From assembly GCA_947381435.1 (NCBI GenBank), contig CANCVE010000021.1, positions 1 to 48,778 on the forward strand: 48,778 nucleotides of DNA, written 5' to 3'. The position numbers were made by a program, and so were the translations under genes. Every line of letters starts with the position of its first letter. The stretch's first letter is position 1. The DNA comes from Chitinophagaceae bacterium. GTDB lineage: Bacteria > Bacteroidota > Bacteroidia > Chitinophagales > Chitinophagaceae. Of the stretch, positions 13,792 to 48,516 are shown in pieces. The notes beneath the pieces were generated by a model, which did no database searches, was not told where the DNA came from, and saw only the letters and a program-made list of their open reading frames with translations.

Positions 13792-14049
13792 TACAATTTA
13801 ACGTACAACCTTGCCGCAAGTTGTCGGCAACCCAATCGTCCGGCGTGTAACCTTGAAGTGAAAGTGATTCTGTCCAATCGTTAGGTATGCAGGCTTGAAG
13901 TGAAAGTGATTCTGTCCAATCGTTAGGCATGCAACCTTGCCGCAAGTCGTCGGCAACCAAATCATCTGGCATGCAGGCTTGAAGTGAAAGTGATTCTGAC
14001 CAATCGTTAGGCATGCAACCTTGCCGCAAGTTATCGGCAAGGTTGCATG
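13792..14049. repeat. 42-bp tandem array, six units
   Basis: Units start at an AATCRT-type boundary at 13834, 13876, 13918, 13960 and 14002, exactly 42 bp apart, with a degenerate unit before them. Two alternative half-units are shuffled: one contains TTGCCG-n8-CGGCAA, a perfect dyad, and the other contains CTTGAAGTGAAAGTGATTCT. The array lies between two convergent genes. Both strands stay open through it (42 = 14 codons), giving leftward frames with a C-x-P-N-D-W-T-E-S-L-S-L-Q repeat. I do not think these are expressed proteins. Confidence 0.85.
14012..14049. terminator. 15-bp perfect hairpin at the end of the 42-bp array
   Basis: CATGCAACCTTGCCG (14012-14026) and its exact complement (14035-14049) form a long GC-rich stem with an 8-nt loop. 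It sits between convergent genes, 57 bp from the GH35 stop. It could end transcription in both directions, although the flanking T-runs are short. Confidence 0.45.
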
Positions 14050-14105
14050 TCGAATTTTCAATCAGAAAATGTCTTTTTATTATCTCTCAGTAAATTAACG
14101 CTTAA

Positions 14106-16568
14106 TTAAAACCCTGTAATCGTAGTGCTATATTGAGAAATAAACGTGATATTGTTGATTTGTGCTTTATCCTTACCAATCAAGGGTTCGCGAATGCCAT
14201 CCTCAAAGTATATTTTGCTAGCATCTTTTAATGAGGTAACCACTAAAGAAAGTGTTTTGCCACTAGCTGAATCTGGCAATTGATTTAATCCTATCGTCAT
14301 CGGAAAGCCGTCATAAAAATCATCTGCTACAAGTTTGCCATTAAGGTAAGCACCTTGTGTATCACCCTCATAATCTATTTTCAAGAACGCATTTCTCAAC
14401 CCTTGCAAACTATTTTTCGGAATATTAACTTTGTAATATTTAGCCGAAGCAATGGGCTGTAGAGTCGCCCCATATAGCGGATAAGACAATGGTTTAGATG
14501 TATCAGGGGTAATTGCCTTTGCCGCCTCATTAAGGGAAGCATCTTCTTTCCAATCTACGGATAGTTTCTTTGGGGTAAAGCTGAATTTATAAGAAGAGAA
14601 AATACCCTCTTGCTTTGTAACCACATTCTTCTGGTTGATAAATGCCAATCCATTATTTGAAGGAAAAACGGCAAGACTAACCGATGTATTATCCGTGCTT
14701 TGAAGTGAAATATTGTCGGTATTAATTACCATGTCTGCATTAGAAATTAATAGATAATCCTTACCTGCAATTGTTGCTTTCCAAGCATCTAAGGCTTGTT
14801 GGCTAGCTAATGTAATAATCCGAACCTTCTTCCCAGATTTTGTGGTAAATACTATACTGGAATTAGTGCCTGTCTGATTAATTTGTAGAAGAAGATGGTC
14901 ATTTAGCTTGATAGTTTTATACGCTGTACTTGCATTTATCAAAGTTTTACTATCAAAACAATAGGTTGGTTTCAAACCCTCAATTGCTGCAAATACATAC
15001 ACCGTTTCTTGATTAGCGTTTAAGGTACAAACAGGTTGTGTAGTGCTGTAGATTAGGTTTTCTCCTCCGATATTTAGGTTGAAAGGAATAACAAACTGCG
15101 CATCTTTTTTAATGGTAACAGGCTCCTCTGGAACATTTAATACACTTCCGTCGCTTTGTTTAATGGCAAATTGTACATTGGCAAAATCATGCAAAGGTAA
15201 CTGACGCTGAAAGTTATTTACAAAGATGAAACCGCTATTTTGTTTTGCCCTTACTGACCAACGTAGAGTTGAAGTATCACTGGGCTTTTTAGCTAATTGA
15301 TTAGGGAAGTAAGTATTACAAATAGCTAGCTTATCACCAAAGTAGTTTAGGAAGTAATGAAACAATTTATAACTCTTATAAGAAGGTTTCAGTTCTCCCC
15401 ATTCACTAATGGGGGCTTGAAAATCATAGTTGATAATGGGGTAATCATTTGGATATTTGGTGGCTTTGGATTCTTGCAAAGTAGATAGTTTACCTATGGA
15501 ATTACTTCCTCCATGAAACATATAATACCCCAACAAATTAGCTCCCGAACCAGCTTTTGCAATTGCCAAACCCAACACATCCTTTGGTGCAATAATAGGT
15601 CTGCGATGATAAGTTACTTGAATGCCAGCCCCCATTTCTGCCGTAGCATAAGGATAACGATAACCGCTAAAGTTGGTGGTATCTTTTGGTTGATTGCCTA
15701 ATAAGTCTGTGCCAATAGTTTGATCGATGCGAAGGGTACTGAAAAGATAGTTATCTCTCAAAGGCAACTTAGTTGTCTTTTTATCCCATGGTGCTTCAGG
15801 ATACCCACCCTGCACAGGAATTAATTCTACCTGATTTATGTCTGCACCCGGCCAGCCTGTAGCCGTATAATAAGGCACATCAATGCCAGCATCTATGGCC
15901 ATTTTCTTTAAGGTTAGCACATGCTGTAAGCCTCTTGGATTGTTAAATCGGAACTCATTTTCTATCTGAACACCTACCACAGGCCCGCCATCTTTAAAAT
16001 ATAATCCACTTAATTGTTGATGAATCTGTTCGAACAAAGGTTTCACATATCCCAAATAGTTTGCATCGTTAGAACGAACTTTTGCCTTAGTCAACAACCA
16101 ATCTGGGAAACCACCATTCCTAACTTCACCATGACACCAAGGACCAATCCGCACCAACACATTCATGTTGTGTTTGGCACAAAGGCTAGTAAAATAGTGC
16201 AAGTCACGATTGTCTTTCCAATCCCATAACCCTTCTTGTTCTTCGTGATATATCCAAAAAACATACGTGGCAATGATATCTATGCCACAAGCCTTCATCT
16301 TAAGGATGGAACTTTCCCATTCAGCCCTTGGAAATCGACTAAAATGAAACTCGCCCATCACAGGAAACCAAGGCTTCCCATTCTTTATGAAATAAAAACT
16401 ATTGGCATCAAAGCTTTCACCCTTAGCATTTGTATGTGTGCCTAGCTTTAGGTGATTGGAAATAATGGCCACATTATCTTTTGAAATGTCAACACTATAA
16501 TCACTTTGAGAATAGAGTGTACCAGACAATAGTAAGGCAGCAAAAAACAAGTAGTAAGATGATTTCAT
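14106..16568 (-). CDS. secreted beta-galactosidase, GH35 family
   Basis: 820 residues with an N-terminal signal peptide (MKSSYYLFFAALLLSGTLYS). The family-35 TIM barrel follows directly, with the substrate-pocket segments MGEFHFSR and RIGPWCHGE. E205 in QIENE is the expected acid/base and E311 in TAEMGAG the expected nucleophile. Beta-sandwich domains fill the C-terminal half. It probably removes beta-1,4- or beta-1,3-galactose from the side chains of rhamnogalacturonan I, given its neighbours. It is the last gene of the leftward GH cluster, three bases after GH2. No type IX tail is present, so a periplasmic location is likely. Confidence 0.9.
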   Translation of the reverse strand: MKSSYYLFFAALLLSGTLYSQSDYSVDISKDNVAIISNHLKLGTHTNAKGESFDANSFYFIKNGKPWFPVMGEFHFSRFPRAEWESSILKMKACGIDIIATYVFWIYHEEQEGLWDWKDNRDLHYFTSLCAKHNMNVLVRIGPWCHGEVRNGGFPDWLLTKAKVRSNDANYLGYVKPLFEQIHQQLSGLYFKDGGPVVGVQIENEFRFNNPRGLQHVLTLKKMAIDAGIDVPYYTATGWPGADINQVELIPVQGGYPEAPWDKKTTKLPLRDNYLFSTLRIDQTIGTDLLGNQPKDTTNFSGYRYPYATAEMGAGIQVTYHRRPIIAPKDVLGLAIAKAGSGANLLGYYMFHGGSNSIGKLSTLQESKATKYPNDYPIINYDFQAPISEWGELKPSYKSYKLFHYFLNYFGDKLAICNTYFPNQLAKKPSDTSTLRWSVRAKQNSGFIFVNNFQRQLPLHDFANVQFAIKQSDGSVLNVPEEPVTIKKDAQFVIPFNLNIGGENLIYSTTQPVCTLNANQETVYVFAAIEGLKPTYCFDSKTLINASTAYKTIKLNDHLLLQINQTGTNSSIVFTTKSGKKVRIITLASQQALDAWKATIAGKDYLLISNADMVINTDNISLQSTDNTSVSLAVFPSNNGLAFINQKNVVTKQEGIFSSYKFSFTPKKLSVDWKEDASLNEAAKAITPDTSKPLSYPLYGATLQPIASAKYYKVNIPKNSLQGLRNAFLKIDYEGDTQGAYLNGKLVADDFYDGFPMTIGLNQLPDSASGKTLSLVVTSLKDASKIYFEDGIREPLIGKDKAQINNITFISQYSTTITGF

Positions 16569-16571
16569 TTT

Positions 16572-19460
16572 CTAATTCTTTGGTGCAGTAATAGCCGATT
16601 TGGGTTTTAATTCATCTGGACTATCCTTAGTATATGCATTAAACACAAACTTAGATGGCGTGAGTGTTAAATCTTTAATCAATGCAATATCTATATTAGT
16701 TGTAGGGTTGAATTGAGCACTCAACATATACTTTTTAAGGCTATAAAACAATTGATTAGCAACTGGTTTATTGGGTGTATCACTACCTAAGTCTGCACTA
16801 CTCACTATTAGTTTTCCATTGCCCACCTTAGCTTCAAAAACCAATGCCAACCTCCTATTCATAAACCAAGTATCTATTGGTTGAATTAATGGACGGAACG
16901 TTTTAGGGAAATCTTCCAAGTGCATAGGTTGTGCTTTATGCACTATTTCCCACCATTGAATGTCACTATGATTAGCCGTAGGGAAGTCTGTAAAAGCAGG
17001 ATTCTTTTCATCCAATAAGATACCTAAAGTGTGTGGTGGTCTCATTTTAAACCATGAAGTATTCCAGAATACAGGCAAAAAGTGTTGAACCACTTCCTTT
17101 CCTTTTATAACTTTACCAGCAATATTCAAGAACACCTTTCCGCCTTTATTCAATACATCTTCTGCCTTGGCATCTAGTTCTTTTGTGTAATAGATTGAGG
17201 TATCGCTAACCGTTGGCGTTTGCGATGGATATACCCATAAGTTCCAATCGTTGCTATAGGTTGTGTTAGTAATACTTACCTCAAGCGTTAATTGTGTAGC
17301 TTGTTTAATGGATGATAAATCATATTCAATATTACCTACCACCGTGTTTTTTCCAGTTACAATATCTGTTGGTTTGAAAGCCCCATTTTTTACTAGCTTT
17401 CCTTTATTATCTATTAGTCGCCAATAAACTATGGCATTGGGCAATGTAGCTTTACCATAATGATATATTTCGATGGCGGCATTCAGTTGCTCATCATTCT
17501 TATAAACAAATTTATTTAATCGAGCCAATGGAACGGTGCTATTACAAAACCTTGAAAATCCTTTTGCATCCACATAACCTTTCTCATCCCAAAAGGCATC
17601 CAATACACCCACCAAAGCAGTACCTTGACCACTATAATCGTTCAAGCCTAATAATTGAAAGCCTCCATTATTCGGTGTTCTCAACGACTTTTCAATTTCA
17701 TTCTTATAACATAACACTTGCAGTTTACCTGTTGCGTTTAGGAACTTATCTGCTTCATCAAGCATACCATTGTCTTTCAAGTCCTCTTGAAATAATTCCA
17801 TGTTTTTGGCCTTATAAACGCCAGTATATTTCTTTATCTCCTTGAAGTTTGGAGATGAACACCATTGTCCCATTTCGTGTGCTAGATACGGCATCGTAAA
17901 CTTCTCAATGGCGGCAGTATAATCGCTCTTACTTTCTGGCATTTTATCCCAAGACAAGTTCCTAGCTCCTGACTTAATCATATATTCATTTTCAGGAACC
18001 AATGGCCAACTCATGGCAACGGATGCACCTGTGTATAAACGCCTGCTATCCCTTTTCTGCCAAAAATGAATAAACTTGGTTAAGTATTCAGCTTGTTTGC
18101 TACCCCTTGGTTCATTACCGTATGCCAACATACAGAAGGAAGGGTGATTGCCATATTGTTCCGTCATACGGATGGTTTCATCATAAATAAACTGGTCAAT
18201 TGGTTTACCATCACCCAATGATGAACCATGATTTGCCCAGCTAGGTCCTTCTGGTTGTAGGTAAAAACCAATTCTATCTGCCGCATCAAAAGCAGCTTCT
18301 GGCGGACAATAAGAATGGAAACGCATGTGGTTTAAACCATAAGATCTACAGATGCGAAACACTCTTTCCCAACTAGCTTCATCCATCGGCGCATAACCCG
18401 TTAATGGGAAAACGCAATTATCTACCGTGCCACGTAAGAAAGTAGTTTGTCCGTTAATGGTAAACTGAGTGCCTTTTGTTTTAAAACTGCGCATTCCAAA
18501 CTGAATTTGCTTTTCAGTTTTAGTGCCATTCTTCAATACAATGGTAGCCGTTAATTGATACAATGCAGGATCAAATTCACTCCACAAAGCAACATTATCA
18601 CCCATTGGCAAGGTTGCAGTTAGTGTATCATTATCCACCACAGGTTTGTTGATGGTTATGGGCGCAATAGTTTGTGGTTGTTGCCCAATGATGCGCTTTG
18701 CTGATATAATTACTTTTGCTACATCACCACCTTTTATCACCACTTTAACCTCTGCAGTCTTATCGCTAACATTTGGATACACCTGAACCGCACTAATGTA
18801 TGTAGCAGGTGTAGCAACTAATTCCATTTTACCAACTATACCATTCCAGTTTCCTTGGGTATGATCGGTTAAACTGTGGCTATCTGGACCAACATTTATT
18901 TCTTTAGTTCTATTATCAATCCTGATGGTAATGGTATGTTTTCCAGGAGATAAAACAGTAGATAAATCATATTGATGTGGTGCTACGAACGTCATCAGTG
19001 TGCCAACTTCCTTATCATCCACCCAAACAGTTGTTTCGGTATGGCAACGCTCTAAAAATAGATTGACATGCTGCTTTTTAAACGAAGCAGGAATAACTAC
19101 CTCTTTCTGATACCAAGCTGCACCAACATAGTATTTGGTAGGCGTTAACCAAAAGGGAAATTTCAAATCATCAGGCTGGCGATACTTTGCATAACGAGGA
19201 TTAAAATACCAGCTACTATCATAAATGCTACCTGTCCATTTTGTTTTCAATGTAACCTTATCGCCTTTATCGTTTTCCAACATTGAGCCTGGTAGTTTCA
19301 CATTATCTACCAAAAATCTAGAGAACCATTTCTCTTTGTCGCCTACATCATTTATATCCATTTCAAAACGCCAACTACCTGCTAAGGAAATACTGGTTTG
19401 CGCCGTTGCCGATACGCCCAATGCTATCAGCACTAAAAGAAAGTATTGCTTCATCTTCAT
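16572..19460 (-). CDS. secreted glycoside hydrolase, GH2 family
   Basis: 962 residues from the ATG at 19458-19460 (MKMKQYFLLVLIALG, a signal peptide). The frame stays open further upstream, but that part overlaps the BNR-4 gene and is not protein-like. N-terminal jelly-roll sugar-binding and immunoglobulin-like domains precede the TIM barrel, which starts near FLRGTVDNCVFPLTGY. E450 in YGNEP is the expected acid/base, and E529 in YLAHEMGQW the expected nucleophile. GH2 members in pectin loci act as beta-galactosidase, beta-glucuronidase or alpha-arabinosidase, so the exact specificity is open. It follows the BNR-4 gene by 4 bp and precedes GH35 by 3 bp, a tight operon. Confidence 0.88.
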   Translation of the reverse strand: MKMKQYFLLVLIALGVSATAQTSISLAGSWRFEMDINDVGDKEKWFSRFLVDNVKLPGSMLENDKGDKVTLKTKWTGSIYDSSWYFNPRYAKYRQPDDLKFPFWLTPTKYYVGAAWYQKEVVIPASFKKQHVNLFLERCHTETTVWVDDKEVGTLMTFVAPHQYDLSTVLSPGKHTITIRIDNRTKEINVGPDSHSLTDHTQGNWNGIVGKMELVATPATYISAVQVYPNVSDKTAEVKVVIKGGDVAKVIISAKRIIGQQPQTIAPITINKPVVDNDTLTATLPMGDNVALWSEFDPALYQLTATIVLKNGTKTEKQIQFGMRSFKTKGTQFTINGQTTFLRGTVDNCVFPLTGYAPMDEASWERVFRICRSYGLNHMRFHSYCPPEAAFDAADRIGFYLQPEGPSWANHGSSLGDGKPIDQFIYDETIRMTEQYGNHPSFCMLAYGNEPRGSKQAEYLTKFIHFWQKRDSRRLYTGASVAMSWPLVPENEYMIKSGARNLSWDKMPESKSDYTAAIEKFTMPYLAHEMGQWCSSPNFKEIKKYTGVYKAKNMELFQEDLKDNGMLDEADKFLNATGKLQVLCYKNEIEKSLRTPNNGGFQLLGLNDYSGQGTALVGVLDAFWDEKGYVDAKGFSRFCNSTVPLARLNKFVYKNDEQLNAAIEIYHYGKATLPNAIVYWRLIDNKGKLVKNGAFKPTDIVTGKNTVVGNIEYDLSSIKQATQLTLEVSITNTTYSNDWNLWVYPSQTPTVSDTSIYYTKELDAKAEDVLNKGGKVFLNIAGKVIKGKEVVQHFLPVFWNTSWFKMRPPHTLGILLDEKNPAFTDFPTANHSDIQWWEIVHKAQPMHLEDFPKTFRPLIQPIDTWFMNRRLALVFEAKVGNGKLIVSSADLGSDTPNKPVANQLFYSLKKYMLSAQFNPTTNIDIALIKDLTLTPSKFVFNAYTKDSPDELKPKSAITAPKN

Positions 19461-19464
19461 TATT

Positions 19465-20784
19465 TTAAGGTTTGTATTCAAGTATGTAAACTGGTTGTGG
19501 AGCAATGTTTTCCAGCTTTTCTCCATCACCCTGACCCGCTTTTTGGATAAAGATGTGTAGCTTTTTCGATTGTTTCCACAATTCAGTATCATACGAAGAT
19601 TCCCAATTATCCAAAGAAGTTGTTGTAATATTTTTGGTAGTCCATACATTAGTAGACAAGTCCTTACAGCTAGCCGCAGATGCCACACTTCCATTTTCTT
19701 CATCCCTATACAACATGATGGCACTAACCTTTCCATTGATTTTATTCACCACAATCTGTGGTCTAGAAATAGGTATTTTCTTTGTGCCACCTCCACTCAA
19801 ACTAAAGGCAGTCTTTCTATCCAAAACTTGTTTTACCTGCCAAGACTGTCCATCAAAATAAATTAATTGATACTGCGGAATAGCACTACCTCCTGTTCTG
19901 AAATAGGTGGCAATGTAGGGTTTCCCATCCTCGTCGGCAGTCATAGAGGTTTGGTTTATCAGTTCACTCTTTTGTGGAATTTTCACCACTATTTCAGCAG
20001 AAGCTTTGGTAATGGGTAGTTGATATTGTTCGCCATTACTCTTATGCCAAGTGATGCCACCATCATCCGAAGCTGCATAACACATATTATTATTACTAGA
20101 TACATCTCCACTTTCTCTCCAAACCCACGAAATGTGTATAGTGCCTTTTGCATCCACACAAGCTTGCCAGTAAGCATTTCGCTTACCTTCTCCATCAATC
20201 AACACATCTTGTAGTCGTTGCCATGTCTTGGTTGCAGTACTATATTTATTGATAATGAAATTGCCATTACCCGAACTCCCATCCCGATAAAAAAACAACA
20301 AATCGCCATTTGCCAATCTATAAAACTCTGGGTAAGTAACCTTTCCTTCCTTTGCGCCAGTCATGGGTAATTCCGGCGTTAGTTCTAAACCAAAAGGCGT
20401 TGTGCTTTTGCAATAATGCAATTTGTTTACATGATGATCCCAAGACAAATGCAGGTATCCATCGCCATCAATCATCATACTGATTATGTTATGTGCATCC
20501 TTCACATTGCCTTTATAATCTGTCCGTTTCACCTCCCATATGTTACTGTTAATCTTTCGTTTTGCAAGCACCACATAACCAACGCTATCATAGTAAGAAA
20601 CAAATTGAATCCCTTTATAAGATACTACCGAGTTTTTGCGGAAGATGGCGGTGTTTACAGCGTTCTTAGCCCAACCTAATCCAATGGTTGTTTGAGCGGT
20701 GGAAACCAATGCAGTGACTAGAAATAGAATGAATAAGATATAAGTTTTAGGCAAGTTGCAGTATTTCATTTTTGTACTCTTCAT
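19465..20784 (-). CDS. secreted BNR-4 repeat beta-propeller protein
   Basis: 439 residues with a signal peptide (TYILFILFLVTALVSTAQ). The start could be either the ATG at 20784 or the one at 20769. It carries the hallmark features of the BNR_4 family: DGDGYLHLSWDHH, YPEFYRLANGDLLFFYRDG-type blades and a later Asp-box segment SDDGGITWH. This fold includes polysaccharide lyases of the PL24/PL25 types and several uncharacterised proteins of pectin and gum loci. Placed with PL11, GH105 and CE12 genes, a lyase or hydrolase acting on uronic-acid-containing oligosaccharides is likely. I cannot assign the activity from sequence alone. Confidence 0.8.
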   Translation of the reverse strand: MKSTKMKYCNLPKTYILFILFLVTALVSTAQTTIGLGWAKNAVNTAIFRKNSVVSYKGIQFVSYYDSVGYVVLAKRKINSNIWEVKRTDYKGNVKDAHNIISMMIDGDGYLHLSWDHHVNKLHYCKSTTPFGLELTPELPMTGAKEGKVTYPEFYRLANGDLLFFYRDGSSGNGNFIINKYSTATKTWQRLQDVLIDGEGKRNAYWQACVDAKGTIHISWVWRESGDVSSNNNMCYAASDDGGITWHKSNGEQYQLPITKASAEIVVKIPQKSELINQTSMTADEDGKPYIATYFRTGGSAIPQYQLIYFDGQSWQVKQVLDRKTAFSLSGGGTKKIPISRPQIVVNKINGKVSAIMLYRDEENGSVASAASCKDLSTNVWTTKNITTTSLDNWESSYDTELWKQSKKLHIFIQKAGQGDGEKLENIAPQPVYILEYKP

Positions 20785-22093: not shown

Positions 22094-22105
22094 GTGTGCT
22101 AATAT

Positions 22106-22873: not shown

Positions 22874-22920
22874 TTTAATAAATATATAAGGGGTTAATGA
22901 AAAAATAGTTGGTTAATCTT

Positions 22921-23077: not shown

Positions 23078-23096
23078 AAAAGTTTCATTTGCAATG

Positions 23097-24431: not shown

Positions 24432-24437
24432 TTAGTA

Positions 24438-28891: not shown

Positions 28892-29887
28892 ATGAATAAG
28901 CGTACCAACTTTAGCTGGAGCGAACAATGCGAGCCACACAAACTAAGAACTAGTAAAATTATTAAAGACCATCCCGAAATAAGGCAGCTTATTGGTAGAA
29001 ACCCGTATACATTTTTAGTCATTCTTCTTTGTGTAGGCATTCAGTTGGCGCTTTCTTATTGGCTTGCCGATAAGAGTTGGTGGCTAGTGGTTGGTCTTGC
29101 CTATATAATTGGAGCTTTTAGTTGTCATACTTTGTTTGTTTGTATTCATGAATGTGCGCACAATTTGGTGTTTAAGAACAGGGCTTTGAATAAAATTGCT
29201 GCTATTATTGCCAATTTGCCAATGGGTTTACCTAGTGCTATCTCTTTCCAAAAGTACCATATAAAGCATCATTCGTTTCAAGGAGTTGAAGAGTTGGATG
29301 GTGATATGCCTTACCATTGGGAGGCAAAACTGATAGATAATTCTACCATCGGAAAAGCTTTGTGGTTATTGTTTTATCCTTTGTTTCAGATGCTTAGACC
29401 TGCAAGATTGAAAGAGATTTCTCTTTGGGATGCTTGGACTGTGGTAAACATAGTAGTAGAAGTTGCGTTTATGGGAGGCCTATTTTATCTGCTTGGCGTA
29501 AAAGCTTTGGTGTTCTTATTGGCAAGTTTTTTCTTCTCGGTAGGTTTACATCCTTTGGGCGCAAGATGGGTACAAGAGCATTATTTAACCCATGGCGACC
29601 AAGAAACCAAGAGTTATTACGGACCATTGAACGTGGTGAACTTAAATGTAGGTTACCATAATGAACACCATGATTTTCCTTCTATTCCTTGGAACAATTT
29701 GCCAAAACTAAATGCTCTAGGGGGTACTTATTATTCTTCACTTCACTATCATAAGTCCTATACATTATTACTTTTTAAATTTCTATTTGATAAGGAAATG
29801 TCTGTTTATTCTCGTATGGCTAGGTCAAACAGAGGAAAAACCAAGCTGGAAGAAAATGTCATTCAGGATGGGATTAGCTATAAATAA
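28892..29887 (+). CDS. DES1/DEGS1-like sphingolipid (dihydroceramide) delta-4 desaturase
   Basis: Membrane di-iron desaturase of 331 residues. Three histidine boxes are in place: H86-E-C-A-H90, H123-I-K-H-H127 and H256-N-E-H-H260. From memory it aligns with human DEGS1 along nearly its whole length. Shared features are the N-terminal lipid-DES signature (F-S-W, P-H, R, H-P-E-I-R-Q-L-I-G-R-N-P against F-E-W, P-H, R, Y-P-E-I-K-S-L), the ANLPxGxP...ISFxxYHxxHH block, and the GLHP...EHY...SYYGPLN...NVGYHNEHHDFPxIP block. Several hydrophobic spans flank the boxes. The closest eukaryotic enzymes put a 4,5-trans double bond into dihydroceramide. Bacteroidota make dihydroceramides, so a substrate is available. 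Ordinary acyl-lipid desaturases lack this combination. Confidence 0.85.
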   Translation: MNKRTNFSWSEQCEPHKLRTSKIIKDHPEIRQLIGRNPYTFLVILLCVGIQLALSYWLADKSWWLVVGLAYIIGAFSCHTLFVCIHECAHNLVFKNRALNKIAAIIANLPMGLPSAISFQKYHIKHHSFQGVEELDGDMPYHWEAKLIDNSTIGKALWLLFYPLFQMLRPARLKEISLWDAWTVVNIVVEVAFMGGLFYLLGVKALVFLLASFFFSVGLHPLGARWVQEHYLTHGDQETKSYYGPLNVVNLNVGYHNEHHDFPSIPWNNLPKLNALGGTYYSSLHYHKSYTLLLFKFLFDKEMSVYSRMARSNRGKTKLEENVIQDGISYK

Positions 29888-30030
29888 AAGGATATGTTTT
29901 TTGTTTAAATAGTATGATTTACAATTAATTAAGTTTTTTATTGGATAAAATCTAAAACCTAAACAAATTTGATTGATTCTGGAATATCTACACAAAGTGA
30001 TTCTAAGCATAAGGCCGCTTTTGACTTAAT

Positions 30031-30283
30031 TCACTGGGTTAAAATATAATCTCACTGGGTTGAAATATATTCTCACTGGGTTGAAATATATTCTCACTGG
30101 GTTAAAATATAATCTCACTGGGTTGAAATATAATCTCACTGGGTTGAAATATATTCTCACTGGGTTGAAATATATTCTCACTGGGTTGAAATATAATCTC
30201 ACTGGGTTAAAATATATTCTCACTGGGTTGAAATATAATCTCACTGGGTTAAAATATAATCTCACTGGGTTGAAATATATTCA
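30031..30283. repeat. 21-bp tandem array, 12 units
   Basis: CACTGGG recurs every 21 bp from 30032 to 30263, twelve times. The unit is TCACTGGGTTGAAATATATTC with two polymorphic positions (TTG/TTA and ATATATT/ATATAAT). In the commoner form AATATATT is an 8-bp dyad. The array is between the desaturase and cytochrome genes, both rightward. All frames stay open, giving Y-I-L-T-G-L-K heptads that I do not regard as a protein. The unit variants are mixed along the array, suggesting repeated slippage or gene conversion. Confidence 0.9.
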
Positions 30284-30482: not shown

Positions 30483-31118
30483 ATGCTCAATGAACCTGTA
30501 TTATTTCAGCAAACAAAACCTACTATTATCCGCATCTGGCATTGGCTAGTATTCTTGTTTTTTGCCGCATCAGTATCTACCGTAGTTGTACAATCTTTAT
30601 TCTTCAAGACAAGAGATAATGTACAAATGGTTCAAAATAAGGTAACAGAAAAAGGCGGACTGATAACACCCGATCAGGCTAAAAACGTTGCCCATGAATA
30701 CAGCGATAAACTTTGGGATTTACATAAATACATTGGTTTCGGAATAAGCTTTCTTTTCATTTGGCGCTTGGTAGCTGAGATTATTATCGCTAAAGAAAAA
30801 AAGATAAAGAGAAGAATTAATATCGCTCAAAACCTACCGGAAAGCAATAAAGACAAGAAACATTATTTGATGGTTCAGTATAGCTATCTCATCTTCTATC
30901 TATTATTTCTAATAATGGTTTCCACCGGATTAATCTTGGCTTTTGAGGATGTAGCCCTTTTAAAATCCCTCCATCGTACTGCAAAAAACATACATAGCCT
31001 GTGTCAGTGGGGGATGTACGGGTTTATGTTGTTTCATATTACGGGCGTAATCATTGCCGAATGTGGCGATTTTAATGGCATTGTCTCTAGAATGATAAAT
31101 GGAAAAGAGGCAAACTAA
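30483..31118 (+). CDS. cytochrome b561-like membrane protein
   Basis: 211 residues, four predicted membrane helices. The candidate haem ligands are H20 in R-I-W-H-W, H81 in D-L-H-K-Y, H164 or H171 in L-H-R-T-A-K-N-I-H, and H185 in L-F-H-I-T-G. The layout matches di-haem b-type cytochromes of the prokaryotic cytochrome b561 / hydrogenase b-subunit superfamily. Such proteins pass electrons between the quinone pool and a periplasmic partner. The partner is not evident here: the next gene is a large surface protein. A weak promoter-like TACTTTTA lies at 30453-30460. Confidence 0.8.
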   Translation: MLNEPVLFQQTKPTIIRIWHWLVFLFFAASVSTVVVQSLFFKTRDNVQMVQNKVTEKGGLITPDQAKNVAHEYSDKLWDLHKYIGFGISFLFIWRLVAEIIIAKEKKIKRRINIAQNLPESNKDKKHYLMVQYSYLIFYLLFLIMVSTGLILAFEDVALLKSLHRTAKNIHSLCQWGMYGFMLFHITGVIIAECGDFNGIVSRMINGKEAN

Positions 31119-35135: not shown

Positions 35136-35570
35136 ATGGAACGAATAAAGATTAATTTACCAGATACATTTAGTTTCAGTACAAATATTTCTGTTAGAAT
35201 TACAGACTTAAACTATGGCGGACATGTAGGTAATGATGCGTTTTTGTCAATACTTCATGAAGCAAGGATACAGTTTTTACACCAGTTTGGTTACAGCGAA
35301 ATGAATGTAGAAGGAGTAGGACTTATCATGTGCGATGTAGGCATAGAATACAAAAGAGAACTTGCCTATGGTGATGTTGTTAAGATTTCAGTTGCAGCAA
35401 CTGGATTTGACAGACTAGGTTTCGATTTTTTTTATTTAATAGAATTAATAGGAGAGGGAGATAAAAATATCATTGCAGGAAAAGCTAAAACGGGAATGCT
35501 TTGTTTTGACTACACCAACAAGAAGAAAGCAAGTATACCCGCTATTGCAATAGAAAAAATGAGAAGCTAA
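35136..35570 (+). CDS. acyl-CoA thioesterase family (hotdog fold) protein
   Basis: 144 residues of the 4-hydroxybenzoyl-CoA thioesterase superfamily, marked by I-T-D-L-N-Y-G-G-H-V-G-N-D near the N-terminus, L-H-E-A-R-I-Q-F, and an I-x-Y-K-R-E-L-A-Y-G-D core. I chose the ATG at 35136 because MERIKINLPD matches the usual opening. An ATG at 35124 adds four residues. It probably hydrolyses acyl-CoA or aromatic acyl-CoA thioesters, with the physiological substrate unknown. It has its own promoter and is convergent with aroE. Confidence 0.82.
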   Translation: MERIKINLPDTFSFSTNISVRITDLNYGGHVGNDAFLSILHEARIQFLHQFGYSEMNVEGVGLIMCDVGIEYKRELAYGDVVKISVAATGFDRLGFDFFYLIELIGEGDKNIIAGKAKTGMLCFDYTNKKKASIPAIAIEKMRS

Positions 35571-35603
35571 TTGATAATTGTTAATTGACAATTATCAATT
35601 AAC
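35571..35603. repeat. TTGATAATTGT palindromic repeat between convergent genes
   Basis: TTGATAATTGT (35571-35581) and ACAATTATCAA (35588-35598) form an 11-bp perfect stem with a 6-nt loop, filling the 28-bp gap between the thioesterase and aroE stops. The aroE stop codon sits in the tail of the element. The same family occurs at 39962-39990 and, inside a gene, at 45150-45181. It may serve as a bidirectional terminator here. Confidence 0.7.
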
Positions 35604-36363: not shown

Positions 36364-36377
36364 AAACTAATGGACTA

Positions 36378-37296: not shown

Positions 37297-37324
37297 AATT
37301 AGTTGCTTAGCAATGCAATAATCG

Positions 37325-39331: not shown

Positions 39332-39342
39332 GGGGTTATACT

Positions 39343-39382
39343 TTGTACGTTTTAAGTTTTACGTAAAACTTAAAACGTACAA
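39343..39382. repeat. 40-bp perfect palindrome between DUF3822 and rsmD
   Basis: Two exactly complementary 20-bp halves meet at 39362/39363 without a spacer, built from ACGTTTTAAG and CTTAAAACGT words. A partial further copy (ACGTAAAAC) follows. As RNA it would form a long AT-rich hairpin 11 bp after the DUF3822 stop, so it could terminate or process the transcript before rsmD. Confidence 0.8.
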
Positions 39383-39419
39383 CGTAAAACGGACAGTTTA
39401 CTACTTTTAATTGGTTTCT

Positions 39420-39962: not shown

Positions 39963-40034
39963 TTGATAATTTTCAATTGATAATTGATATGCTTTCTTTC
40001 ACTAACCACTAATAACTCACCACTAACCACTAAA
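39962..40034. repeat. two abutting interspersed repeats before bioD
   Basis: First a TTGATAATT-type segment (39964-39990, related to the palindromes at 35571 and 45150), then a run of CACTAACCACTAATAACTC words (40000-40034) inverted relative to the copy behind smc. The second ends directly at the bioD ATG, leaving no ordinary leader or ribosome-binding sequence. Confidence 0.65.
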
Positions 40035-40769
40035 ATGATTTTTATTACTGGAATAGGTACTGGCATTGGTAAAACGGTGGTAAGTGCCATCGTATCTGAG
40101 GCATTGGAAGCTGATTATTGGAAGCCTATTCAGGCGGGCTTCGAGGATGGAACCGACGCTTTACAAGTGAGTTCATTAATCTCCAATAAAAAAACAATCA
40201 TTCATCCCGAAGTTTATAAGTTGCAAATGCCCGCTTCTCCACACATTTCGGCAAGAAATGAAGGGGCGAGCATCAGCATAGAATCTATTGTTGACCGTTT
40301 ACCGTCAACCGATTACCGAAGCGGCGGACAGCGGTTAACGGTTAAAGGAGAACGGTCAACTGATTACTGTCAACCGTTAACCGAAGGAGAAGATGGCGGT
40401 CAACGGTCAACGATTAACAGTAAACCGCTAATAATAGAAGGTGCCGGCGGCATCCTAGTTCCCCTAAACGACAATGAATTTGTGATTGATTTAATTGAAC
40501 AATTGGGCGCAAAAGTGATATTGGTAAGCAGGAATTATTTGGGAAGCATCAATCATTCTTTGCTTACAGCTTCCATCTGCAAACAAAGGAATATTGATGT
40601 GATTGGGTGGATATTTAATGATCAATATTTGGCTTATGAGGAAGAAATCGTAAGATGGACGGGTTATCCAAAGATTGCTTCTATTCCATTGGCTGAAAAA
40701 ATAGATAAAGCATTTGTTTTGCAGCAGGCTGGGTTAGTTAGGGAAGCTCTTTTAAGACTCTATGTATAA
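40035..40769 (+). CDS. bioD: dethiobiotin synthetase with a repeat-encoded insert
   Basis: ATP-dependent ring closure giving dethiobiotin in biotin synthesis. From the ATG at 40035 it has 244 residues. It contains the P-loop GIGTGIGKT (6-14), substrate motif YWKPIQAG (29-35) and the later IIEGAGGILVPLN. Dethiobiotin synthetases of this type are about 205 residues. The difference is an insert at about 86-131, encoded by palindromic repeat DNA (40290-40427), which keeps the frame. An upstream TTG start at 39984 would add 17 residues from repeat sequence and is not used here. No other bio gene is adjacent. Confidence 0.9.
   Translation: MIFITGIGTGIGKTVVSAIVSEALEADYWKPIQAGFEDGTDALQVSSLISNKKTIIHPEVYKLQMPASPHISARNEGASISIESIVDRLPSTDYRSGGQRLTVKGERSTDYCQPLTEGEDGGQRSTINSKPLIIEGAGGILVPLNDNEFVIDLIEQLGAKVILVSRNYLGSINHSLLTASICKQRNIDVIGWIFNDQYLAYEEEIVRWTGYPKIASIPLAEKIDKAFVLQQAGLVREALLRLYV
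40290..40427 (+). repeat. palindromic repeat inserted in frame in bioD
   Basis: About 138 bp made of alternating ACCGTTAACCG- and CGGTTAACGGT-type words (examples: CCGTCAACCGATTACCG near 40301, CGGTTAACGG at 40332, CAACCGTTAACCG near 40371, GGTCAACGGTCAACG near 40398). The two ends are imperfect inverted copies, so the whole folds on itself. It is G+C richer than the gene, and its length is divisible by three. It encodes a hydrophilic Ser/Thr/Gly/Arg-rich segment foreign to the family. Confidence 0.75.
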
Positions 40770-40797
40770 TAAAACAAGTCAATAATTAAAATATAAG

Positions 40798-41016
40798 ACT
40801 AAACTTATGCGACGGAAGCTTGAACTTATACGACGGAAGTCTAAACTTATACGACGGAAATTTGAACTTATACGACGGAAGTTTGAACTTATACGACTAA
40901 AGTTTGAACTTATGCTACAGAAGTCTAAACTTATACGACGAAAGTTTGAACTTATGCGACGAAAGTTTGAACTTTTGTGACAAAAGCTAAAACTTATGCG
41001 ACGGAAGTTTGAACTT
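40798..41016. repeat. 21-bp tandem array, 10 units plus a partial
   Basis: AACTT recurs every 21 bp from 40802 to 41012. The unit is roughly AACTTATACGACGGAAGTTTG with scattered point changes. Each unit junction reads AAGTT-TG-AACTT, a dyad. It fills the space between bioD and the next gene, both rightward, and begins about 30 bp after the bioD stop. All frames stay open (N-F-R-R-I-S-S on the other strand), but I see no evidence of translation. Confidence 0.9.
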
Positions 41017-41045
41017 TTATTGAACACTTAATGGTAAATTAAATA

Positions 41046-41615
41046 ATGACTAAGAAAGAACTTAGACAGATTTATAAGCAGAAAAGGCTAGACATCTCCT
41101 CCAAAGAGAAGCTAAAGCTGGATGATTTACTGTTGTTACAATTGCAAACTTTCAACTTTGAAGGAGTGAAAACGGTGCTTACTTATTGGCCAATGGCAAA
41201 TATGGCTGAACCTAATACGCATCTTTTTTCTGGTTACCTGCGGTATTTTGTACCCGATTTGCAACTTGCTTATCCAGTTAGCAACTTTACGGATAATACA
41301 ATGAAGGCCATTTTGATAGATGAAGACACTGTTTATACCACCAATAACTTTGGCATAACAGAGCCAAAAGAAGGGAATGTGATTGAGCCAATTGAATTGG
41401 ATTTAGTTTTTGTGCCGAATTTAATCTGTGATAAAAAGGGTTTTAGGGTAGGATATGGCAAAGGATTTTACGATAAATACCTTTCTCAATGCAATGAAGA
41501 CGTCACTTTGATAGGATTCAATTACTTTGCACCAATTGAAACAATAACGGACAAGGATGATTTTGACATACCTTTAAATTATTGTATCACTCCCGATGAT
41601 GTGTTTGAGTTTTAG
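41046..41615 (+). CDS. 5-formyltetrahydrofolate cyclo-ligase
   Basis: Converts 5-formyl-THF to 5,10-methenyl-THF with ATP. 189 residues, the usual length. It opens M-T-K-K-E-L-R-Q-I-Y-K-Q-K-R and has the C-terminal signature GFRVGYGKGFYDKYL, whose Gly-rich loop binds ATP phosphate. Also known as fau/ygfA or MTHFS. It starts 30 bp after a tandem array and is followed by lpxK, 39 bp away. Confidence 0.93.
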   Translation: MTKKELRQIYKQKRLDISSKEKLKLDDLLLLQLQTFNFEGVKTVLTYWPMANMAEPNTHLFSGYLRYFVPDLQLAYPVSNFTDNTMKAILIDEDTVYTTNNFGITEPKEGNVIEPIELDLVFVPNLICDKKGFRVGYGKGFYDKYLSQCNEDVTLIGFNYFAPIETITDKDDFDIPLNYCITPDDVFEF

Positions 41616-41654
41616 TTTGGGCTCAATTAAATAGTTAGTTACAAGAATTTTTAC

Positions 41655-44784: not shown

Positions 44785-44804
44785 GAAGTGATTGTAAGAA
44801 ATAC

Positions 44805-44847
44805 AAAAAAAGGAGAGCATAAAGAAATTTATACTCTCCTTTTTTTT
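44805..44847. terminator. rho-independent terminator after rnr
   Basis: Seven A, AGGAGAG, a loop containing a small ATAAA/TTTAT stem, CTCTCCT and eight T. It is perfectly symmetric in A and T tracts, so it can end rnr and also serve the convergent gene at 44934-47708. Confidence 0.9.
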
Positions 44848-44933
44848 ACTACCAAGGGTTTAATGGCAGACTTTAAATGTAATAGTGAAAACTAACTTGA
44901 TAAATATTTAAATTGTTGATAACCTTATGTTTC

Positions 44934-47708
44934 TTATTCCTTCACAAAACCTACCCCTCCTACCTTCCCATCGGTAGTTAGAATTCTTAGATGATACACT
45001 CCCACAGGCAAACCACCCACAGAAAGCGTTGGGTTGGTAGCATCTTTTAATGCTTGAGTCTTAATTACTCTTCCAAGATTATCCACCACTTGTACTGATA
45101 CAATGTGACTACCTCTGATAGTTACAGAACTTTTTGCCGGGTTTGGATAAATTGACAATTGATAATTATCAATTGTCAATTGTACTGAGACTATCTTACT
45201 GTAAGCAAAACTTCCATCTTTATCTACATTTTTTAAGCGGTAATAGTTGATGCCATTTGTTGGTTTGTTATCTGTAAACTGATACCCATTTGCACTTCTA
45301 CCTATTGCTTTTACAATACCTATGTCTGTAAAGGAACTGCCATCTGTACTGCGCTGAATGATGAAGTGGGAGGTATTAAGTTCGATAGCAGTTTGCCAGT
45401 TTACAGCTATAATGCCATTTTTATTTGCTGCAGACAAATTGGTAATCTTCAAAGGCAATGCCCCACACGAAGCTGGCAAATTTGCAATAAAATTATCAAT
45501 AGAGGTCGGATGCCATCCTAATGCAATTGTATCTGTTACATTATTTGTTGTAGTATTAATTACACTAATATCATTGCTCCCATAATTAGAAACATACAAT
45601 GTGCTGCCATCTGGTGTTACACTCACACCCCATGGGCTATTACCTACTGTAACCTTAGTTATTGTTGAATAGTTTGTAGCATTAATTACACTAACTGTAC
45701 GTTTATAAGGGCTTACAACATACAACTTACTCCCATCAGGACTCACACACATTCCTTCAGGAAATAAATCTACATTAAAAGTAGTTATTACTGCTTTAGT
45801 GAGGGTACTGATGACAGTTATTAGGCTATTTGCATCAGTGTTTATGTATAATTTTTTTCCATCAGGGCTAGTATACATTCGATAATTGCCAGATGGCAAT
45901 CCTTTAATTGTATCAATTACTTTGTAATTATAAGCATCGACAATTAATATTGAATTTGAATTGTAATCTTGGGCATATATTTTTTTACCATCAGGGCTTG
46001 AACATATACCACTAATTGAAATCCATTTGGGCGCTATACGTGTTATGAAAGTTCCATTATCAGCATTTAAAATATTTAATCCCCCGTTGGATACATATAT
46101 ATATTTACCATCAGGGCTACCACTTACACCTGTAATGGGGGCGTTAAGGATAACATCGGAAGCTAGTACTTTTTTTGTTTCAGTATTTATTATGTTGATG
46201 TTATTTTTTGATTGATTAATCACATAAACTTTACTTCCATCTGGACTACTAAAAATATCACCAGGACTTTGTATGTTATAAATAGTGTCAACAATCTCGT
46301 TTGTAGTTGTATTAACTACGCATACGTTATTACTATCATAATTTGTTATATAGGCATAGGCCTTTCTAATTCCAGTAAAAGTAAAAATGCTATCACTTGT
46401 GGTTACGCCATCAGGAGAAGTAATTACTATGTTTCCAGTATTCCCTTTACTTACATACGCCGTTATATTGAAAGAATCATTAACCGCAAAAGAATCTACC
46501 GCTGTTTTTCCAATAGATACTGCTTTTGCACCTGCTAAGTTTGTTCCTTTAATATGAACAGGTATGCTATTGCCAAAGCAAGTTAAATTTGGAGTGAATG
46601 AGTTAATAGTTGGTTGATTGAGTTTTTCAAAGGTAGCTACATAATGTTTTCCATTTTCATTCGTAAAATAGCCCCCAACATAGATATTTTTGGAAGTATC
46701 GGTAATTATAGATGTTACGCTACCATTAAAAATATTATTGCTCCCTAATGGAAGCCAACTACTACCGTTCCATCTGAAAAGAAATTGATTTGGAGAGCCG
46801 CCACTATATGAATTATAGCCAGAAGCATATATATTACCTTTTGTATCAGTTATAATCGTTTTGAAAAGAGTGTCACTCGAAGTATAACCCAAGCCACTCC
46901 AAATACTTCCATCCCATTTAAAAATATGATTGTTTGCTAAGTATATATTGCCTGCAATGTCTATTGAGATACTTCCATTATCAAAACCATATTGATAAAA
47001 AGTACTTGTATTTGCACCACCAACTTCATTCCAAGATTTACCATTCCACTTTGCTACGTAGCTATAATTTTTTATATTAGTAAAGTTACCAACCGCATAT
47101 ATATTACTCCCTTTATCAACTGTAATACTTTGAATTTGTCCATTAAAAGTAGAAGTGTTTGTGCCACCAAGTTCTGTCCAACTGCTCCCGTTCCATTCGG
47201 CTACATATTCTTTGCCATTGGTATTAGTAAAAGCCCCTGCAGCATACACATTGCCATTAACATCGGTAGTTAAACTAAAAATCCAATTATTAAAAGTAGA
47301 CTTGTTTTTACCACCCAATTCACTCCAACTTTTACCATCCCATTTAGCTATATAGTAATTTCCGTTGCCATTAGTGAAATATCCCGCAGCATATACATTC
47401 CCTTTAATGTCGGTGGTGATAGTCCAAATGTATTGATTAAAAGTTGTATCATTAATACCCCCTAACTCACTCCAACTCTTGCCATCCCATTTAGCTACAT
47501 ATTGTTTACCAATTCCATTAGTAAAATAACCACCCACATACACATTGCCTTTGGTATCTGTTGCAATAGTTTGAGTAATATTGTTAAAAGTAGAAGTATT
47601 CTTACCACCAAGCTCATTCCATTGTGCTTTGGTAACTTTTGTAGATAATAAGAGGTAGAAGATAATTGCAAAAGTTGATATTACATACTTTGGTCTCAAA
47701 AGTTTCAT
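44934..47708 (-). CDS. secreted beta-propeller/YVTN protein with type A sorting tail
   Basis: 924 residues with a signal peptide (ISTFAIIFYLLLSTKVTKAQ). The first ~370 residues hold tandem repeats of about 45 residues: W-N/S-E-L-G-G, then D-x-x-G-N-V-Y-x-x-G-x-F-T-N, then Y-V-A-K-W-D-G-K-S-W. An IPT/TIG-like domain follows (S-F-T-P-N-L...GTNLAGA), then a YVTN-type propeller with repeated S-P-D-G-S/K-K-x-Y-V. A fibronectin-like segment (VNWQTAIELNTSHFIIQRS) leads into the sorting domain IYPNPAKSSV. The link between the last two is encoded by a palindromic repeat (45150-45181). A surface-attached scaffold or adhesin seems likely. Confidence 0.85.
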   Translation of the reverse strand: MKLLRPKYVISTFAIIFYLLLSTKVTKAQWNELGGKNTSTFNNITQTIATDTKGNVYVGGYFTNGIGKQYVAKWDGKSWSELGGINDTTFNQYIWTITTDIKGNVYAAGYFTNGNGNYYIAKWDGKSWSELGGKNKSTFNNWIFSLTTDVNGNVYAAGAFTNTNGKEYVAEWNGSSWTELGGTNTSTFNGQIQSITVDKGSNIYAVGNFTNIKNYSYVAKWNGKSWNEVGGANTSTFYQYGFDNGSISIDIAGNIYLANNHIFKWDGSIWSGLGYTSSDTLFKTIITDTKGNIYASGYNSYSGGSPNQFLFRWNGSSWLPLGSNNIFNGSVTSIITDTSKNIYVGGYFTNENGKHYVATFEKLNQPTINSFTPNLTCFGNSIPVHIKGTNLAGAKAVSIGKTAVDSFAVNDSFNITAYVSKGNTGNIVITSPDGVTTSDSIFTFTGIRKAYAYITNYDSNNVCVVNTTTNEIVDTIYNIQSPGDIFSSPDGSKVYVINQSKNNINIINTETKKVLASDVILNAPITGVSGSPDGKYIYVSNGGLNILNADNGTFITRIAPKWISISGICSSPDGKKIYAQDYNSNSILIVDAYNYKVIDTIKGLPSGNYRMYTSPDGKKLYINTDANSLITVISTLTKAVITTFNVDLFPEGMCVSPDGSKLYVVSPYKRTVSVINATNYSTITKVTVGNSPWGVSVTPDGSTLYVSNYGSNDISVINTTTNNVTDTIALGWHPTSIDNFIANLPASCGALPLKITNLSAANKNGIIAVNWQTAIELNTSHFIIQRSTDGSSFTDIGIVKAIGRSANGYQFTDNKPTNGINYYRLKNVDKDGSFAYSKIVSVQLTIDNYQLSIYPNPAKSSVTIRGSHIVSVQVVDNLGRVIKTQALKDATNPTLSVGGLPVGVYHLRILTTDGKVGGVGFVKE
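45150..45181. repeat. TTGACAATTGATAATT palindrome inside a coding sequence
   Basis: A perfect 32-bp palindrome lying in frame in the secreted propeller gene, where on the minus strand it encodes T-I-D-N-Y-Q-L-S-I (about residues 844-852), right before the type IX sorting motif Y-P-N-P-A. Related copies at 35571 and 39964 lie in gaps. The gene frame runs through the element without a stop. Confidence 0.8.
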
Positions 47709-47829
47709 AAACGATAATTGTTATTTTGTTGTATAAATTGTTTTTGCAATAATAATTATTCCTCATTAATAAAAATTCTTTGTTTAATAATTTATTTTCT
47801 GCGTGTTAATTTGAAGATTGTTTCAGTTT

Positions 47830-48020
47830 GTCTGAATCAGAATTAAACTGATTCTAGGATATTTAAGATTGGGCGTATTAATCCTACTAATCCTTTAATA
47901 CTGATAATCCTGATTCAGACGATTTATTTGTCTGAATCAGGATTAGAATGATTGTAGGATATTTAAGATTGGGCGTATTAATCCAACTAATCCTTTAATC
48001 CTGAAAATCCTGATTCAGAC
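47830..48020. repeat. two tandem copies of a 91-bp GTCTGAATCAGGATT inverted-repeat element
   Basis: Copy A at 47830-47920 and copy B at 47930-48020 begin exactly 100 bp apart and are nearly identical in length and sequence. Each ends in perfect inverted repeats (GTCTGAATCAG/CTGATTCAGAC); in copy B the match extends to 15 bp. The interior shares GATATTTAAGATTGGGCGTATTAATCC-type sequence. From memory, elements of this kind are widely dispersed in Bacteroidota and other bacteria. No gene is inside them. Confidence 0.85.
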
Positions 48021-48328
48021 AATCCTCACCATAAAACGATGGTTCATTTTCGGTTAGATTTCTACGAAATGACAATTCGGGCAGGCTGCTTCTTTTTGAT
48101 AAATGCTCGATTGTTGAGACAAAAAGACAAGGAATCGTGTAAATAAAATCATGAATTGTATAACGAAGCTAGCGGCACCTGCTGCGACTTTTGCTCTATC
48201 AAAAAACGATGGCAATGAAAAAGTCTTTAAGCTCTCCAAACTCACTCACCTCCTCTAATACATCACTAATACTCATTTTTCACCCTTGTAAAGGCTTTAC
48301 TAGGGCTGGTTAACGCTTTTGGGGCTTG
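48021..48328. other. gene-free stretch
   Basis: No confident gene. A leftward frame from a GTG at about 48245 gives a 63-codon hydrophobic peptide ending C-P-N-C-H-F, and an ATG near 48276 opens only 25 codons in another frame. The pair might be a frameshifted relic, but I cannot name it. The sequence is less AT-biased than the flanks. Confidence 0.4.
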
Positions 48329-48516
48329 CTCCCGAGATGAAGGGAACACCTCCCGAGATGAAGGGAACACTTCCCGAGATTAAGGGAACACTTCCCGAGA
48401 TTAAGGGAACACTTCCCGAGATGAAGGGAGCACTTCCCGAGATTAAGGGAACTCTTCCCGAGATGAAGGGAACTCTTCCCGAGATGAAGGGAACTCTTCC
48501 CGAAATTGAGAGAGGT
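48329..48516. repeat. 21-bp tandem array, nine units
   Basis: CCCGAG recurs every 21 bp from 48331 to 48478, with a degenerate ninth copy (CCCGAA) at 48499. The unit is TTCCCGAGATGAAGGGAACAC, in which TTCCC and GGGAA form a dyad. Variation is confined to GATGA/GATTA, GGGAACAC/GGGAACTC and one GAGCAC. Both strands are open through it, but no start codon context suggests a gene. Confidence 0.9.

Follow-up and report, generated by a model that had tools for sequence, protein, structure and literature searches.

The window analysed here, the whole 48,778-nucleotide stretch of contig CANCVE010000021.1 from a Chitinophagaceae bacterium (assembly GCA_947381435.1, genome G000), carries four tandem arrays that share a repeat length and are not recognizably related in sequence. 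The arrays and the genes adjoining them are as follows.

13806..14040, no strand: array 1, a less regular 42/84-bp array in which 21-bp blocks are mixed, with convergent genes on either side
14106..16568, minus strand: flanking gene, glycosyl hydrolase family 35 (GH35; Pfam)
28892..29887, plus strand: flanking gene, fatty acid desaturase (Pfam)
30027..30279, no strand: array 2, period 21, 12.1 copies, 93% matches, no indels
30483..31118, plus strand: flanking gene, cytochrome b561 family (Pfam)
39984..40769, plus strand: flanking gene, AAA_26 protein (Pfam), which we take to be bioD-like
40800..41016, no strand: array 3, period 21, 10.2 copies and 81% matches over 40802–41016, in the gap between the bioD-like and 5-formyltetrahydrofolate cyclo-ligase genes
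41046..41615, plus strand: flanking gene, 5-formyltetrahydrofolate cyclo-ligase family (fthf; Pfam)
48330..48503, no strand: array 4, period 21, 8.3 copies, 94% matches, followed by one degenerate unit

A first-pass annotation of the window had placed four mutually unrelated arrays here, and both location and unrelatedness stand: blastn linked no pair among arrays 1–4. Its description of the period as exactly 21 or 42 bp suits arrays 2–4, all with period 21, but not array 1, in which a 42-bp period covers 13832–14023 with 71% matches and 7% indels, an 84-bp period covers 13887–14040 (1.8 copies, 95% matches), and degenerate units extend to about 13806. None of the four lies inside an open reading frame (ORF) of at least 100 aa, taking overlap by more than half as the criterion.

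The arrays belong to a class that is abundant in the genome. In a sample of 1.24 Mb (about a quarter of the 4.88-Mb genome), 92 of the 116 strong tandem arrays (TRF score of at least 100) have a smallest period of 20–22, 41–44 or 60–64 bp, the period class used throughout, while TRF found 0 arrays at that score once the same 1.237 Mb had been block-shuffled. Their density in the sampled part is about 74 per Mb, and autocorrelation of the sample has maxima at 21 bp and its multiples. Repeats of 7 bp are also common in this genome. The smallest periods among the 92 are 21 (40 arrays), 42 (30), 41 (13), 22 (3) and 20 (2), with 43, 60, 63 and 64 found once each; 71 arrays thus have a period of 21, 42 or 63, and because the other 21 deviate, chiefly to 41, “exact” is too strong a word sample-wide as well. 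The excess of 41 over 43 (8 versus 1 families, and 4 versus 0 arrays in a second sample) would fit a 10.4-bp helix, small as these numbers are; between 20 and 22 (1 versus 2 families) there is no lean to the shorter period. One congener has the same excess, with 33 of 36 arrays in the period class, and 19 other Chitinophagaceae genera gave one of six.

The claim that period, rather than sequence, is the common property is borne out by a period histogram with a large excess at 21/42 bp over the whole 1.24-Mb sample, mostly between genes. With ORFs of at least 100 aa standing in for genes in all coding and intergenic counts, 85 of the 92 arrays are intergenic and 7 overlap an ORF by more than half. 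The 74 arrays that could be classified by gap lie in 37 co-directional, 25 divergent and 12 convergent gaps, against 98, 45 and 31 kb of gap bases, respectively, and neither an orientation preference nor a link to terminators was found among them. Autocorrelation inside the arrays gave no sub-period signal at lags 7, 10, 11 or 14, which rules out that they are triplets of 7-bp repeats or a 10.5-bp repeat sequence.

By blastn, the 85 intergenic arrays fall into 58 families, with 33 related array pairs as opposed to 0 with reversed sequences. In 6 of 12 related pairs examined the main similarity is confined to the arrays, at sites otherwise unrelated, and 5 are plain segmental duplications. The array-only pairs include two from the window: array 4 with L048 (11674–12042, 94% identity), and array 2 with L059 on contig C73, whose flanks are unrelated; array 2 is also related to an array on contig C47 (L053), and array 1 to L039 (18317–18525). 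For most families no mutual similarity was found, so a common ancestor of all arrays is not demonstrated. Comparing 21-mers, 21 pairs reach 13/21 identities where 11.4 are expected, values below 15 otherwise resemble shuffled sequence, and the 11 pairs with at least 15 identities may simply be the known families; a single super-family of all 21-mers was rejected on this account.

Copy number is unimodal, with a peak at 8–10 units in arrays scoring at least 100, and the units are enriched in dyads. Counted over families, dyads occur in 50% versus 8% of the 41–44-bp units and in 19% versus 6% of the 20–22-bp units; the second sample gave 12/37 versus 5%, for arrays neither reduced to one per family nor filtered for coding sequence. 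The second dyad axis, 21 bp away in the 42-bp units, is not independent evidence, as the unit is palindromic overall. Among the four window arrays no dyad reaches p < 0.05 (0.07, 0.14, 0.77 and 0.78).

Comparison with twelve congeners, whose fragmented assemblies are split into between 130 and 710 contigs, shows the arrays returning in the same gaps. For the trp genes, ten of the twelve genomes with a trpC match were examined, G009 and G004 being left out for truncated matches. Seven of the ten have an array in the trpD–trpC gap, with periods of 21, 41, 42 or 63, and in the three others the gap is absent or the gene order different, so that all seven genomes with the gap have the array. The bioD–fthf gap, which holds array 3, has 21/42-bp arrays in most of the eight genomes that possess it, clear in six and weak in one. 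The unit sequences in these shared gaps differ among most congeners, those of G000, G005 and G006 being related; the same gap thus keeps the same period with changed units.

The two closest comparisons show how units are retained and replaced. In the bioD–fthf gap, 11 units stand in conserved order in G000 and G005, with 94% identity at the same rank as against 77% and 80% within the arrays. In the trp gap, one edge unit of G000 matches the consensus of G005 at 21/21 positions, identical to an inner unit of its relative, and the 42 bases of 3′ flank after it are also identical to G005, while the nine units preceding it carry a different variant. The sequence samples of G000 and G005 have little overlap, so nucleotide and gene synteny yielded no more than a handful of gaps to compare.

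Other arrays come and go. The one downstream of ruvC occurs in 1 of 12 genomes, the one downstream of an aminotransferase gene in 2 of 7 (the matches with at least 75% identity, remoter ones being left out) with a weak two-copy trace in a third, and no array lies beside the GH35 orthologue of G005. In several congeners the genes abut without an array. Since arrays are gained and lost, and genes abut array-free in congeners, single arrays are dispensable.

We believe that, taken as a whole, these patterns are probably best explained by a dispersed intergenic satellite that evolves in concert and has a putative architectural role. The inherited-satellite part is likely in its own right. Array material would move to new intergenic sites, and a settled array would hold about 8–10 units, of which the inner ones overwrite one another in register while those at the edges lag; in the trp gap, ancestral units would persist at the edge after the inner ones were replaced. 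As in-register exchange, presumably the process at work, keeps unit length, a period of about two helical turns would be inherited while the sequence turns over. Unit length may also be held near two turns (21 bp, with 41–42 bp as double units) for DNA architecture, a function that we propose tentatively: weak dyads at 21-bp intervals over a length of about 190 bp could form a docking strip, for example for an oligomeric DNA-bending or DNA-bridging protein of low sequence specificity. Counting against the explanation as a whole are the dispensability of single arrays, the lack of an orientation preference and of an excess of compensatory stem changes, the missing similarity between most families, the absence of a significant dyad in any of arrays 1–4, the 5 segmental duplications among the 12 pairs, and the 44 isolated 21-bp rows described below, which could be seeds. 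Slightly more doubtful than the architectural function is a bolder reading, a DNA element set by geometry rather than sequence, with weak dyads at each two turns over some 190 bp and units free to turn over, read by a low-specificity oligomer or as DNA structure.

The first-pass annotation had suggested either replication slippage as the shared generator or a function that needs its sites on one face of the DNA, the second of which may hold. In its full form the slippage account would be a replication or repair step, governed by the helical pitch or by the footprint of a protein, that repeatedly makes 21-bp duplications with neither function nor common descent, slippage being favoured by hairpin-forming units. 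The 58 families without detectable cross-similarity speak for it, dyad enrichment could flag hairpin-prone sites, and 41 does lie far above 43. Further support comes from 44 isolated, low-score and mostly degenerate rows at 21 bp, where 19, 20, 22 and 23 bp have 1, 3, 4 and 1, although these rows could be remnants of arrays as well as seeds. Slippage of unique DNA nevertheless fits poorly with a unimodal copy number and with the scarcity of clean two-copy 21-bp duplications outside arrays, of which there are only 2, both composed of 7-bp repeats; persistence in the same gaps, retention of the edge unit and array-only sharing between sites count further against it, and we regard a purely mutational origin as unlikely. 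A selfish mobile element, with the arrays as cargo or ends of a small gap-inserting element without host function, would account for array-only dispersal to unrelated sites and for gains in a single species, such as beside ruvC and near an IS5-family transposase gene. An unsystematic look at the 12 pairs, however, noticed neither ends in common nor terminal repeats or duplicated targets, and the arrays persist in the same gaps across the genus, which makes such an element very improbable.

The same dyads would be expected if the arrays acted as RNA, transcribed into rows of small hairpins with a role in binding proteins or regulators, or in protecting or terminating transcripts, and some arrays do sit in operon-like gaps such as trpD–trpC. 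Against this, compensatory stem changes in 40 arrays show no clear excess (14 of 220 changed cells, 6.4%, versus 5.0% in control column pairs), the lack of orientation preference includes 25 arrays in divergent gaps, and the window has no match in Rfam. Two turns of A-form helix would take 22 bp and not 21, which is weak evidence in the same direction. Transcription of 52-nt satellites is on record for Bacillus in the discussion of PMC8161180, a point in favour of an RNA role, which we find distinctly improbable overall. That the arrays are pieces of expressed proteins built on a seven-residue repeat, or errors of assembly, is hardly credible: a 21-bp unit does equal seven codons, and several arrays are open in one frame, yet the great majority lie outside ORFs, not all of the periods 20, 22, 41 and 43 can be divided by three, the unit order of the bioD gap is the same in the separately assembled G005, and periodicity shows at 1 of the 39 contig starts inspected. 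Judged by ORF overlap, the check for protein fragments came out in favour of non-coding arrays.

Among known systems, the iterons of plasmids are repeated directly at a spacing of about two helical turns, which places their sites on one face of the DNA, and in this they resemble the arrays; iterons, however, share one conserved sequence read by one Rep protein, where the G000 sample has 58 families. VNTR minisatellites, which arise by slippage, are likewise tandem and intergenic, but the arrays differ from them in a period fixed across families, a unimodal copy number and, in one gap, a unit order kept between two species. The 52-nt satellites of Bacillus and other Firmicutes (Subirana and Messeguer) also combine constant length with variable sequence, though at about five turns, and lag 52 is at background in the G000 sample.

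The nearest counterpart bears on the first-pass view that no described system matches. Subirana and Messeguer (PMC8161180) describe bacterial tandem repeats of constant length (20–23 nt) and variable sequence, remark on the two helical turns, and characterize the class as mostly non-coding, with several species-specific families of one repeat length per genome; for Bacillus they report that the repeats of a given species contain a short word typical of them (section 3.3), and the purpose of such repeats is called an open question. The G000 arrays agree in their dominant length, non-coding bias, several unrelated families and unconserved sequence, and so belong to an already described kind. That class was published for Bacillus and other groups, whereas G000 is one of the Bacteroidota, and its arrays also form higher-order periods of 41/42, 63 and 84 bp. 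The terms palindrom, hairpin, dyad and Bacteroid are absent from the main text of that paper, beyond which the present arrays add dyad enrichment in two samples and, from shared gaps, evidence of in-place unit turnover: same-period arrays with different units in congeners, survival of an edge unit, sharing at unrelated sites without shared flanks, and the peak at 8–10 units. The genus is a tractable case: arrays number in the dozens per Mb, there are twelve congeners, gaps next to conserved genes are shared, and intermediate stages of unit replacement can be seen. Inheritance of the period and selection on it can therefore be asked about separately, and dyad enrichment offers a first feature, independent of sequence, to test for in the repeats published from other bacteria.

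All four intergenic tandem arrays located by the first-pass annotation are present where it placed them, and the exact 21- or 42-bp period that it gave them holds for arrays 2, 3 and 4, which are clean 21-bp repeats, while array 1 is looser:

13806-14040, array 1, flanked by a GH35 gene: mixed 21-bp blocks at a looser 42/84-bp period
30027-30279, array 2, upstream of the cytochrome b561 gene: 21-bp period
40800-41016, array 3, in the gap (40770-41045) between a bioD-like gene and the 5-FTHF cyclo-ligase gene (fthf): 21-bp period
48330-48503, array 4: 21-bp period

The unit sequences do differ as described, with no blastn link between any of the four. The window also holds other repeats: a 147-bp repeat at 47142-47546, within the beta-propeller gene 44934-47708 (minus strand), which is an ordinary coding repeat; an intergenic 100-bp unit at 47827-48020 in 1.9 copies, whose ends look inverted (TTTGTCTGAATCAG ... 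CTGATTCAGAC) and which may be a small MITE-like element duplicated in tandem; and short 7-bp-unit arrays at 4071-4101, 35568-35600, 39361-39391, 40000-40033 and 45150-45183, a class distinct from the 21-bp arrays.

Among named records, relatives of RNase R come mostly from metagenome genomes of Chitinophagaceae and other Bacteroidetes, and isolate names that resemble sample labels suggest a freshwater origin.

The period excess extends genome-wide. In a sample of 60 stretches plus the window (1,237,136 bases, roughly one quarter of the 4.88-Mb, 231-contig genome G000, in which the window is the 48,778-bp contig C21), TRF found 116 arrays scoring at least 100, against none in a block-shuffled copy; 92 of them have periods of 20-22, 41-44 or 60-64 bp, and in 24 the smallest period lies outside these classes. 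That the arrays might be fragments of proteins, as the annotation had allowed, is at odds with the overlaps: only 7 of the 92 lie for more than half of their length in ORFs of 100 aa or longer, compared with 11 of the 24 other-period arrays. Inside the other 85, which fall below this overlap, mean autocorrelation peaks at 21, 41-42, 63 and 82-84, with small shoulders beside, and is at background at lags 7, 10, 11, 14, 31 and 52. In a 437-kb sample of the congener G005, which is 84% identical to G000 where alignments reach 400 bp or more, 33 of 36 arrays have class periods or multiples of these. A first sample of 12 congeners, 40 kb of it from G005, gave 19 arrays in 286 kb, seven at 21, 41, 42 or 63 and one at 44, and 19 other genera of the family gave six in 360 kb, one at 21; the excess is therefore proper to the genus and densest in G000 and G005.

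The 85 arrays, most commonly of 8-10 units (score at least 100), fall into 58 families, and give 33 related pairs, whereas reversing one side of the comparison leaves none. Of the window arrays, all but array 3 have related arrays on other sampled stretches: the array at 30027 on L059 and L053, that at 48330 on L048, and that at 13832 on L039. Among 12 related pairs whose flanks were compared, the main similarity is confined to the arrays in six (window 48330/L048, window 30027/L059, L009/L010, L030/L041, L038/L061, and L035/L036 near 14.5 kb), the first having one secondary alignment that runs about 43 bp beyond the window array into degenerate L048-side units. L013/L040 is borderline, with similarity 38 bp past the array, and five pairs are segmental duplications extending well beyond it. 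Array material can therefore turn up at unrelated sites. On L034, the units of two 21-bp arrays, both short and separated by about 50 bp (10238-10294 and 10344-10412), are near reverse complements of each other.

Comparison of the same gaps among congeners upholds the view that the period is kept while the units differ. The fthf gene is present in 12 of 13 genomes, and the gap between it and the bioD-like gene carries an array of period 21 or 42 in G000, G005, G002, G003, G006 and G001, and a weak one (3.2 copies) in G010; the roughly 400-bp gap of G007 has none, and the genes lie end to end in G004, G008, G011 and G012. By eye, the units of G002, G006 and G001 are alike, and unlike those of G000/G005 and of G003. 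On the far side of fthf, the next gene lies about 1.8 kb away in two relatives (L064 7060-8860, L066 7057-8857) versus about 40 bp in the window. The trpD-trpC gap, compared in 10 genomes, holds arrays of period 21, 41, 42 or 63 in seven: G000, G005, G006, G001 (3.4 copies), G010, G007 and G012. The two genes abut in G008, trpD was not found within 1.5 kb in the trpC region of G002, and its end lies about 1.1 kb upstream in that of G011. Arrays with other units, placed by distance from the gene, lie at most 500 bp upstream of cytochrome b561 in G001 and G007; none was found there in G005, G006 or G010. Other positions speak against such persistence: downstream of ruvC an array occurs in one of 12 genomes, downstream of the aminotransferase in two of the seven genomes compared (G009 has a weak trace of two copies), and the GH35 orthologue in G005 is without array 1. 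Some array positions are thus old and some young. At L040 7738-8805, the ruvC array (41 bp, 3' of the gene, G000 only) adjoins an IS5-family transposase gene.

Unit turnover can be followed within two gaps. In the trp gap, G000 and G005 agree fully over 42 bases of 3' flank beyond the last degenerate unit. One G000 unit beside that edge matches the G005 consensus at 21/21 positions, the nine units preceding it carrying another variant; G006 units diverge further, and the counts are 11, 12 and 9 units in the genomes compared (G000, G005, G006). In the bioD gap, G000 and G005 have the order of 11 units in common, with 94% identity at the same rank versus 77% and 80% within the arrays. Both gaps look like concerted evolution in place with copy number little changed, which explains how a period can be passed on while the sequence is lost.

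Outside the arrays there are two clean two-copy 21-bp duplications, both of 7-bp repeats, periods 7 and 14 being the commonest low-score rows in the G000 sample. TRF nevertheless reports 44 isolated 21-bp rows of low score, mostly degenerate and with 1.9 to 4.8 copies, compared with 1, 3, 4 and 1 at 19, 20, 22 and 23 bp, which count against a simple claim of "no seeds"; part of them are built from 7-bp repeats, and the remainder may be remnants or seeds.

The best inverted repeat of each unit (dyad) was compared with shuffles of that unit, one array per family, with pseudo-arrays of intergenic DNA as control. It reached p<0.05 in 19% of 20-22-bp units (n=27) versus 6% of pseudo-arrays (Mann-Whitney p 0.001) and in 50% of 41-44-bp units (n=30) versus 8% (p 8e-8); a second sample, from G005 and other congeners, gave 12/37 versus 5% (p 7e-5). 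None of the four window arrays is significant (p 0.07, 0.14, 0.77, 0.78). Compensatory changes within arrays show no clear excess (6.4% vs 5.0%), so the dyads may mark origin or mechanism and not selection.

These observations agree with a dispersed intergenic satellite in which evolution is concerted and unit length inherited. In the bioD-fthf and trpD-trpC gaps the units have been replaced and the periods are still 21, 42 or 63 except for a single clear case of 41; so small a drift of unit length despite unit turnover hints at constraint. We infer that an architectural role, with spaced dyads on one DNA face, would be the likeliest function.

The annotation's statement that no described system matches does not stand: PMC8161180 describes Bacillus repeats of constant 20-21 nt and variable sequence, reports 20-23-nt repeats in individual species across many groups, likens that length to two turns of the helix, and suggests nucleoid proteins or small RNAs as players. 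Among the papers that our literature searches listed, we met none on 21-bp arrays from Bacteroidota and none on dyads in repeats of this kind. The features described here are additions of which, in the literature surveyed, we met no test for other members of the kind, and it is under this known kind, the constant-length variable-sequence repeats, that the window arrays are filed.
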